A DNA stretch of 38,439 nucleotides from positions 1-38,439 of the forward strand of contig QHYM01000112.1 of the NCBI GenBank assembly GCA_003223295.1. Reading direction: 5' to 3'. The notes beneath the pieces were generated by a model that saw only the letters and a program-made list of their open reading frames with translations, had not been told where the DNA came from and did not search any database. Made by a program: the position numbers and the translations under genes. This DNA comes from Acidobacteriota bacterium. GTDB lineage: Bacteria > Acidobacteriota > Terriglobia > Acidiferrales > UBA7541. Of the stretch, positions 548-32,475 are shown in pieces (position 1 is the stretch's first letter; each line of letters starts with the position of its first letter).

Positions 548-2767
548 ATGAAACTGCGCAGCAAGTTCTTGCTATCGCTGGTGCTGGTCATCGCCACGAT
601 GACCGGTGGGACACTGCTGGCCGTGCGGCAATCCATGCAGGCGCAAGCGCAGCGGCAAGTGGAAGAAGACGCCCGCAATTCCATACTGACATACCAGGTG
701 ATGGAGCAGCAAAGACGGCTGGTGCTGAGTCGCAAGGCGGAGCTCCTGGCCACGCTCGCGTACATGCGGAATGGCGACCCGGCCGTAATTCGGGAAGTGA
801 GCCAGGATCCGTGGCAATCGGAAGAGTGCGACCTGTTCGCGCTGGTGGATGGCAAGGGCAAAGTCACCGCGTTGCAGAGCAGGATTTCCGATTTTCCGGC
901 GAATGTATCGAACGAAAGCATCAAGGACCTGGTGCGAAGCGCGGGCAATCAGGATTGGTGGGTCAACGGGAAGCGGATTTATCAGGTAGTGGTGAAACGG
1001 TTCTATAAGGACCCGCCGATCAATAGCCTGCCGATGGGCGAAGTGATTGTGGGGCGGGAGATTGATCCAAACAGGGCCAAGGATTTGGGGCGGATTCTGG
1101 CGAGCGAAGTGGTGTTTCGAGAGGGAGAAAATATTCGCGTAAGCTCGCTGCCGGCCGTGGAGGAGCAGGAAGTAGCACAGCAGCTCAAGAGCGCATACAA
1201 ACCGCTGGAGGCGCGGCTCGGGAAAAAGCATTTCTATGCGGGTTCGCTGGAGTTGATGCCGGGCGCGCGCCCGAACTTGAGTTTCATTGTGCTGAAATCG
1301 GACGAAGATGCGCTGGCGTCGCTTGGGCGACTAAACCACCTGCTCGTCGGCTTGGGGCTGATCGTGGTGCTGGCAGGCGTGATGCTGGTTTACGTGATTT
1401 CGGATGCGTTTACAAAGCCGCTGGGATCGCTGGTGGAAGGCGTTCGCGCGCTGGAAGAAGGCAATTTCAGCTACCCGTTAATGGCTGATGGCGGGGACGA
1501 AGTGGCACGCGTGACACGCGCGTTTGAAAGCATGCGCAATACGCTGGAGCGCAACCAGGAGCAGCGGGAACAACTGGAGGAGCAGCTCCGGCAGGCGCAG
1601 AAAATGGATGCGCTGGGCCGGTTGGCCGGCGGCGTCGCGCATGACTTCAACAATTTGTTGACGGTGATCAAGGGAAACAGCGACCTGGCACTGGAACGCG
1701 TCAAGCCGACGGACCCGGTGCACGGAAACTGCGAACAGATTCGGCGCGTGGCGGACCGGGCGGCATTGCTGACGCGGCAGTTACTGGCGTTCAGCCGCAG
1801 GCAAATGCTACAGCCCAAGATTCTGGACTTGAACGAATTGATCGTGGAAATGGGGCGGCTGCTGCAGCGACTGCTGCGCGAGGACATTGAGTATAAAGTG
1901 CAACTCGCCGAACCGCTGGGGCGGGTGCAGGCGGATCCGGGGCAAATGGAGCAGGTGCTCCTGAACCTGATCGTGAATGCCTCGGATGCCATGCCGCGCG
2001 GGGGAACGCTGACCATTGAAACGGAAAACGTTACGGTGGATGAGCGATACGCGCAATCGCACGCACCGATGGCGCCTGGGGATTACGTAATGCTGGCAGT
2101 AAGCGACACCGGGTACGGCATGGAAGCGAGCACCAAGGCGCGGATTTTCGAGCCCTTTTTTACGACGAAGGAACCCGGCAAAGGCACGGGGCTCGGTCTG
2201 GCGACGGTGTATGGCGTGGTGAAACAGAGTTCAGGCTACATTTTTGTGGACTCCGCACCCGGGGCGGGGGCGCGGTTTGAAATCTATCTGCGACAAGTGC
2301 TGGACAAGGCGCAGACTGCTCCCGCGGAAGAGCGCGCTGCCAAGCTGCGCGGGGGGCGCGAGACAGTGCTCCTGGTCGAAGATGAAGCCGATGTGCGAAC
2401 GCTGATCTGCGAATTCCTCAAGGCCGCCGGCTACCAGGTGCTGACCGCGGCGGATGGCGAGGAAGGACTCGACATCGGGCAAAAATTCGGGGAAGAGATC
2501 GATATTCTGGTTACCGACGTGGTGATGCCCCGACTGCGAGGCCCCGAGTTGGCGAAACGGCTAAAACGGCTGCTCCCTGACCTGAAAGTGGTCTACATGT
2601 CCGGGTATACGGAAGAGTTCAGCGAAGGACCGAATCTGTTGGAAAGCGGATCTTTCCTGCAAAAGCCGTTCTCGCGCGATACGCTGCTGCGGCAAATCCA
2701 TGACGCACTCAAAGGAAAGCCCGCCGAGCCAATCGACCGCCCTGCATTTTCTTTGCGCATCAATTGA
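548..2767 (+). CDS. hybrid sensor histidine kinase with C-terminal receiver domain
   Basis: This 739-residue membrane protein should sense a signal, autophosphorylate on His and pass phosphate to its own Asp. A first membrane helix lies at about residues 9-27 and a second at about 262-285, bounding an extracytoplasmic sensor of about 230 residues. HAMP (about 286-340), a coiled linker, HisKA with H365 in the GGVAHDFNNLL box, and an ATPase domain (N box NLIVNASDAM, G1 DTGYGM, FFTTK, G2 GTGLGLATVYG) follow. A receiver domain from about residue 602 carries D657 in LVTDVVMP. No DNA-binding output is fused, so a separate phosphotransfer partner or response regulator is expected. The ligand cannot be read from the sequence. 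The sensor part has a double-CACHE-like length but was not identified firmly. Confidence 0.93.
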   Translation: MKLRSKFLLSLVLVIATMTGGTLLAVRQSMQAQAQRQVEEDARNSILTYQVMEQQRRLVLSRKAELLATLAYMRNGDPAVIREVSQDPWQSEECDLFALVDGKGKVTALQSRISDFPANVSNESIKDLVRSAGNQDWWVNGKRIYQVVVKRFYKDPPINSLPMGEVIVGREIDPNRAKDLGRILASEVVFREGENIRVSSLPAVEEQEVAQQLKSAYKPLEARLGKKHFYAGSLELMPGARPNLSFIVLKSDEDALASLGRLNHLLVGLGLIVVLAGVMLVYVISDAFTKPLGSLVEGVRALEEGNFSYPLMADGGDEVARVTRAFESMRNTLERNQEQREQLEEQLRQAQKMDALGRLAGGVAHDFNNLLTVIKGNSDLALERVKPTDPVHGNCEQIRRVADRAALLTRQLLAFSRRQMLQPKILDLNELIVEMGRLLQRLLREDIEYKVQLAEPLGRVQADPGQMEQVLLNLIVNASDAMPRGGTLTIETENVTVDERYAQSHAPMAPGDYVMLAVSDTGYGMEASTKARIFEPFFTTKEPGKGTGLGLATVYGVVKQSSGYIFVDSAPGAGARFEIYLRQVLDKAQTAPAEERAAKLRGGRETVLLVEDEADVRTLICEFLKAAGYQVLTAADGEEGLDIGQKFGEEIDILVTDVVMPRLRGPELAKRLKRLLPDLKVVYMSGYTEEFSEGPNLLESGSFLQKPFSRDTLLRQIHDALKGKPAEPIDRPAFSLRIN

Positions 2768-31934: not shown

Positions 31935-31941
31935 GGGGGCA

Positions 31942-32475
31942 ATGAACGGCACCCTCAATAATCGCCTTTCCATGATTACCCTGGCGGACGCAGACGGTAA
32001 GGAACTCCGCTTTGGTTCGCTGTGGATCCGCCAGCCGGCCGTGGTAGTTTTCTTGCGTCATTACGGCTGAATTTTCTGCCGCGAGCACGTCGCGCAGTTG
32101 CGCGCGCACGAACAGGCCTTCCGAGACCGCGGAGCGGCCTTGGCCGCAGTTGGGCTTGGGGATCGCAGCTATGCGCGAGCTTTTCGCGACGAAGCGGGTA
32201 TCACCTTTCCGCTGCTCATTGACGAAAAGCGCGAAGCCTATTCCGCCATGGAGCTCAAGAACGCAAACCTGCTTCACTTGTGGCGAAGCGATAATGCTCA
32301 GGCTCGCGCCCGCGCCAAAGCGGCCGGGCACTCGCAGCACAAACTCGGGCGAAATCCTTTCCAGTTGGGTGGCAGTTTTGTCTTCGGGCCGGGCGATATC
32401 GATCGGTTCGTGCACCGCAGCCGGACTTTCGGCGATACTGCCCCCATCGGGGCCCTGCTTGCAGCACTGCCCTGA
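31942..32475 (+). CDS. peroxiredoxin-like selenoprotein candidate (in-frame TGA as Sec, UxxC redox motif)
   Basis: Read through the TGA at 32068-32070, this frame gives 177 residues of the AhpC/TSA-like thioredoxin fold (AhpC-TSA_2 group). The strand AVVVFLRHYG is followed by U43-I-F-C46, then REHVAQLRAHEQAF, GITFPLLIDEKREAYSAM and a typical C-terminal half. Relatives read FLRHxGCxFCREHVAQL, so TGA replaces the active-site Cys codon exactly, leaving UxxC. Homology continues in the same frame on both sides with no shift. A stem-loop follows the TGA as bacterial Sec insertion needs. Start is uncertain: 31933, 31942 or 31972 are possible. The alternative is a TGC-to-TGA nonsense change or sequencing error. 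It would reduce peroxides or other thiol-reactive substrates. Confidence 0.75.
32068..32097 (+). promoter_or_regulatory. candidate bacterial SECIS stem-loop downstream of the UGA codon
   Basis: After TGA 32068-32070, CTGC (32076-32079), a bulged C (32080) and GCGA (32081-32084) pair with TCGC (32090-32093) and GCAG (32094-32097). The apical loop is GCACG (32085-32089). This makes eight pairs with one bulge. The loop G residues lie 15 and 19 nt after the UGA, about the spacing known for bacterial SECIS elements that bind SelB. High GC makes chance hairpins common, so this supports rather than proves Sec decoding. Confidence 0.5.

Follow-up and report, generated by a model that had tools for sequence, protein, structure and literature searches.

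A gene for a thioredoxin-fold, peroxiredoxin-like oxidoreductase in an Acidobacteriota genome carries an in-frame UGA that is in all probability decoded as selenocysteine through SelB and a hairpin downstream of the codon. The selenocysteine reading is drawn from the conserved UGA and hairpin, from the fold predicted for the protein and from the presence of the decoding genes. The gene is located on the forward strand of the window, the whole 38,439-nucleotide stretch of DNA that was analysed. It extends from ATG 31942 to a terminator TGA at 32473-32475 as a single frame of 177 residues in which TGA 32068-32070 is the sole internal TGA, and read-through translation gives VVVFLRHYG-U-IFCREHVAQL around this codon, which occupies the first position of a CxxC motif. 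The features of the locus are as follows.

31935..31940, forward strand: GGGGGC directly upstream of the ATG, a possible ribosome-binding site, from reading of the sequence
31942..32475, forward strand: coding sequence of the probable AhpC-TSA_2/SelL-like selenoprotein, from profile matches and conserved close copies
32068..32070, forward strand: predicted selenocysteine codon, an in-frame TGA (U43 of U-x-x-C46); TGA in the close copies, Cys in 5 remoter homologues
32077..32079, forward strand: TGC for Cys46, the partner cysteine of UxxC; Cys in 28/28 close copies
32089..32106, forward strand: predicted bacterial SECIS-type hairpin with arms 32089-32095 and 32100-32106 and loop AGUU 32096-32099, from cross-copy comparison

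The original prediction of a peroxiredoxin-like frame spanning one TGA is borne out by the translation, by Pfam matches and by 27 further close copies. AhpC-TSA_2 (PF13911) is the best Pfam model for the 177-residue protein, at 60.8 bits and above its gathering cut-off of 27, and the AhpC-TSA (47.1 bits, cut-off 26) and Redoxin (29.5 bits, cut-off 26.6) models also match. As the frame is kept on both sides of the TGA in the 27 further close copies, each of which has the TGA, its occurrence is not due to chance. The neighbouring genes (LPG_synthase_TM, NrdR, an ECF sigma factor and zf-HC2) give no hint of function, and among the 29 loci searched, most with about 1.5 kb of flank, the gene order of the window is common only to L056 and L070.

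Conservation of the UGA codon among relatives

Relatives were collected from three samples: the phylum, with a match at E 0.001 for 105 of the 297 genomes, which in many cases is weak and points to another peroxiredoxin-like gene; the order, with matches in 16 of 95 genomes; and the class, with matches in 26 of 399 at E 1e-15. Of the 29 close loci, the truncated L070 was excluded from all counts, and L029, although interrupted by the end of its contig, includes the UGA region. The resulting 28 close copies come from 28 genomes and include the window, for which its copy L026 stands in the computations. They are 58-86% identical to the window protein and form one tree group with support 100/99 in a bootstrap that had not settled. 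All 28 have TGA at the UGA codon and Cys at +3. The 27 remoter loci comprise 18 with TGA at the motif, three of them UxxU and one UxxY, five CxxC homologues of the window protein's type and four Cys-containing peroxiredoxins of other types (L046, L050, L051 and L052) that were excluded from the alignment and from the Cys control (n=5). L047 and L053, of another peroxiredoxin type (RGxWUPxC), were excluded from alignment A1 and retained among the 18 remoter TGA copies. With Sec read as C, all 49 members have Cys or Sec in column 43 of this alignment, and L24, F37, L38, R39, H40, C43 and C46 are invariant or nearly invariant.

The original prediction had favored a UxxC selenoprotein over a broken gene, and had proposed that the protein be aligned with Cys-containing homologues and that UGA-containing homologues be sought in close relatives. 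Both comparisons support the selenoprotein: Cys aligns at the UGA, and the codon is kept throughout the close copies. Disabling mutations in relatives had been named as evidence that would speak against it, and here the picture is divided between the 28 close copies that keep the UGA and a same-genus copy, L070 in G313 (about 1500-1860, minus strand), which has the same neighbours and is without the UGA-bearing N-terminal part. This copy looks, from its sequence, either decayed or rearranged.

Estimates of dN/dS were computed for eight of the 27 other close copies. Against the nearest relative, G314, dN/dS is 0.074 over the 122 codons past the hairpin and about 1.0 over the 42 codons upstream of the TGA, where changes are few and the numbers small. 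Synonymous sites are largely saturated for the remaining seven copies, each of which gives a pN lower than its pS. Judged by these substitution patterns, purifying selection is acting downstream of the TGA. These data bear on the possibility that the locus is a nonsense pseudogene, in which the TGA truncates a peroxiredoxin-like gene that once contained Cys at this position. Such a reading would account for the frame broken by TGA, the truncated copy in G313 and the dN/dS near 1 in the short stretch upstream of the codon, but it is very unlikely given that the same TGA is present in every close copy, that the sequence beyond it is under purifying selection and that the hairpin is constrained.

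Selenocysteine decoding genes

A search of the source genome (6.03 Mb, 481 contigs, 95.2% complete, 4.49% contamination) for selA, selB, selC and selD, which the original prediction had also proposed, recovers all four. The selB (350.3 bits), selA (571.2 bits) and selD (349.1 bits) products exceed their curated cut-offs of 242.25, 267.9 and 125, respectively, and there is a tRNA-Sec (selC) with a TCA anticodon. Among the close-copy genomes selB is found in 26 of 28 (5/5 of the phylum sample, 13/15 of the order and 8/8 of the other class members), and the two genomes in which it was not found are incomplete (77% and 73%) and both have selA. As selB is common in any case, occurring in 194 of 297 genomes of the phylum sample and 80 of 95 of the order, its co-occurrence with the gene adds little and amounts to consistency, not proof.

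The UGA could instead specify a different amino acid (Trp, Gly or Cys) or be passed by simple leaky readthrough, without selenium. The gene has TGA as its own terminator, and the stop at or near the gene end in the close copies is TAA or TAG in 12/28 and TGA in 15/28, with 1/28 cut by a contig end; the terminator TGA of the window together with the TAA or TAG of those 12 copies indicates that TGA is also a stop here. Decoding without selenium is most unlikely in view of this use of TGA, of the selenocysteine genes in the genome, of the alignment of the UGA with Cys and of the hairpin downstream that fits the SECIS model.

Two further observations concern the decoding genes themselves. The selD gene of the same genome (L021, G000:C136 8380-9342, minus strand) has an in-frame TGA of its own in a UxxK pattern, and its product looks like a selenoprotein too; UxxK is the motif given for the SelD family in the available part of PMC13188914. 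Two identical tRNA-Sec genes are found at G000:C465 6472-6825 (L001 1497-1854), separated by 259 bases that include a run of N, which is possibly a scaffolding artefact instead of a true duplication.

The hairpin downstream of the UGA

The hairpin starts 19 nt past the UGA, with a spacing of 25 nt from the UGA to the loop. Five of its seven pairs are formed in the window (core 32091-32095/32100-32104), and the best-paired copies read GUCGCGC-AGUU-GCGCGAC. The bSECIS model, as set out in the accessible portion of PMC13188914, specifies a loop of 3-9 nt that has G among its first two nucleotides, a stem of 4-16 bp, a distance of 16-37 nt from the UGA and a minimum free energy of at most -7.5. 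The window hairpin, with loop AGUU, a stem of 5, spacing 25 and -7.5 kcal/mol, conforms to this model, its energy lying right at the limit, and an alternative register with loop AGUUGC scores about equally (-7.7 kcal/mol).

For counting, a strict rule was applied that combines the bSECIS model with a stem of at least 5, and overlapping codons of the same genes served as controls. A hairpin satisfying this rule follows the UGA in 25 of the 28 close copies compared with 124 of 2237 control codons, and in 10 of the 18 remoter TGA copies compared with 129 of 1440; for the Cys homologues the figures are 1 of 5 and 50 of 400. The copies are related and the counts are thus not independent. The rule is missed by L029, L068 and L071 among the close copies and by eight of the 18 remoter TGA copies. 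After the terminal TGA, no such hairpin is found in the window, and one is present in 2 of the 15 close copies with a TGA terminator.

Relative to protein-preserving synonymous shuffles, folding is strongest four codons past the UGA in both TGA groups, with a mean z at the hairpin of -1.22 for the close copies (n=28) and -1.18 for the remoter TGA copies (n=18), compared with +0.06 for the Cys homologues (n=5). The seven-pair register forms a mean of 5.79 pairs in the close copies versus 3.89 in synonymous-random sequences (sd 0.19, maximum 4.54 in 2000). Among the 18 remoter TGA copies its fit is limited to a subset (a mean of 4.17 pairs, versus 3.37 in synonymous-random sequences), and in some of the rest the hairpin is shifted and has a different loop. 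Codon choice within the hairpin is similarly restricted, with TTG for the Leu at +10 in 28/28 close copies (background 14%) and GCG for the Ala at +8 in 26/28 (background 28%). Pair 5 is C-G in 28 of 46 copies and G-C in 7 of 46, a two-sided change. Across the compared sequences, the hairpin is kept beyond what the protein sequence requires, and the short stem-loop originally noted past the TGA proves real and corresponds to the conserved hairpin at 32089-32106. Individual copies are less distinctive. Compared with dinucleotide shuffles, the window hairpin is not unusually stable (z +0.75 for 48 nt and -0.90 for 27 nt) and two other copies reach no significance (z -0.82 and -0.91), and compared with synonymous shuffles the window copy is not exceptional (z -1.33). 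As folding z values of single sequences are not significant, the SECIS assignment is based on the comparison across copies.

The hairpin also bears on the possibility that the locus encodes two products, a 42-residue peptide and a protein starting internally at TTG 32098. A mechanical ORF of 125 aa does span 32098-32475, but within the hairpin TTG 32098 serves as the conserved codon for Leu, and L24, F37, L38, R39, H40, C43 and C46 are near-invariant upstream although a downstream start needs none of them, so that separate products are exceedingly improbable. That the TGA was introduced by mistake in sequencing or assembly, conceivable in a draft genome of 481 contigs, has a negligible probability with TGA at the same codon in 27 other genomes.

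Variants of the motif occur among the remoter copies. L036, L037 and L038 have two in-frame TGA codons (UxxU), followed in L036 and L038 by a 7-pair hairpin with loop AGUU. In L079 (G611), UxxY replaces UxxC, yet the 7-pair hairpin with loop AGUU is kept.

Predicted fold and relation to known selenoproteins

The AlphaFold2 model of the protein has a mean pLDDT of 94.9. The solved structures that match best are those of human prostamide/prostaglandin F synthase, 9us9 in the sequence search (E 4.3e-22) and 9usa in the fold comparison (TM 0.82; next are Bcp4, ResA and AhpE). In the human enzyme, which is about 24% identical to the window protein and has Cys in place of its Sec, C44 and C47 are the counterparts of U43 and C46. 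Alignment to a Bcp-type thiol peroxidase places C46 on a Cys, which we take to be the peroxidatic one, and U43 on a Ser. We infer that the protein acts on peroxides or disulfides, which it would reduce as a thiol/selenol oxidoreductase of the UxxC type. During its synthesis, the hairpin would recruit SelB with Sec-tRNA(Sec), leading to insertion of Sec at the internal UGA, and the terminal UGA, without such a hairpin in the window, would end translation. The first turn of a helix would carry Sec43 and Cys46 as the redox pair of UxxC, and here the selenolate, or Cys46 in line with its alignment to the Bcp-type Cys, may attack a peroxide or disulfide. After the attack a Sec-S-Cys bond would close, from which thioredoxin or another thiol donor of the cell could regenerate the enzyme.

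The protein had been proposed as a new selenoprotein, which is the case for the gene itself; proteins of its kind are already on record, including UxxC/UxxU peroxiredoxin-like proteins, SelL, a UxxS protein and the NF040769 family. The NF040769 model ('SelL-related redox protein') matches residues 12-175 with E 1.3e-34 and, with Sec read as Cys, 119.3 bits, which is 0.7 bits under its curated cut-off of 120; all 49 members of alignment A1 match it at E 1e-5 or better. SelL is described in the available sections of the literature as a peroxiredoxin-like protein that occurs as a selenoprotein in both prokaryotes and eukaryotes (PMC2398784) and carries two Sec residues (PMC3473315). Compared with SelL, taken by description, the window protein is alike in its match to the SelL-related profile and in having UxxU relatives (L036-L038) in the phylum sample, and differs in having one Sec (UxxC) rather than the two of UxxU.

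Peroxiredoxin-like thiol:disulfide oxidoreductase selenoproteins of PF00578 with UxxC or UxxU are listed in the accessible parts of PMC13188914 and PMC9312934, and a peroxiredoxin-like UXXC selenoprotein appears in that of PMC1088965. The window protein resembles the PF00578 selenoproteins in its UxxC and in the UxxU of some relatives, and is set apart from them, by descriptions, in that its best Pfam model is AhpC-TSA_2. An AhpC/TSA family selenoprotein with UxxS, assigned to pfam13911 in the available text of PMC9312934 and to cd02970 in that of PMC13188914, shares its Pfam family and has Sec at the first motif position, but the window protein has UxxC. The available portions of these two sources contain no AhpC-TSA_2 entry with UxxC. 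The motif of classical Sec peroxiredoxins, TxxU in the part of PMC13188914 at hand, is not that of the window protein. Selenoprotein U, according to excerpts of PMC3473315 an animal selenoprotein with a Prx-like2 domain, is comparable by description only. Among the matches listed in a search of the literature on SelL-related and AhpC-TSA_2-type proteins, no title concerns bacterial selenoproteins.

It is conceivable, though rather doubtful, that the close and remoter copies together form an uncatalogued AhpC-TSA_2 subfamily of UxxC/UxxU selenoproteins spread over several families of one phylum, the odds being lowered because SelL has already been named in prokaryotes in the accessible text of PMC2398784. 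If such a subfamily exists, its UxxC, UxxU and CxxC members could show the origin of the double-Sec motif of SelL and the benefit of the second Sec. Nature provides this fold with one Sec, with two or with Cys, and the structure of a human Cys relative is solved, which makes the benefit of Sec testable. As standard annotation halts at the UGA or begins past it, such genes are probably missed or split. Knowledge of selenocysteine decoding itself is unchanged by the gene.

A wider scan of genome contigs, from which near relatives may be omitted, returned two named relatives, a Chloroflexi MAG and a Planctomycetia MAG, both with CxxC, and a search of a plasmid collection gave one partial match. 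In L047 and L053, the in-frame TGA of the RGxWUPxC motif is followed by a 7-pair hairpin, which suggests, from sequence, further selenoproteins in the phylum.
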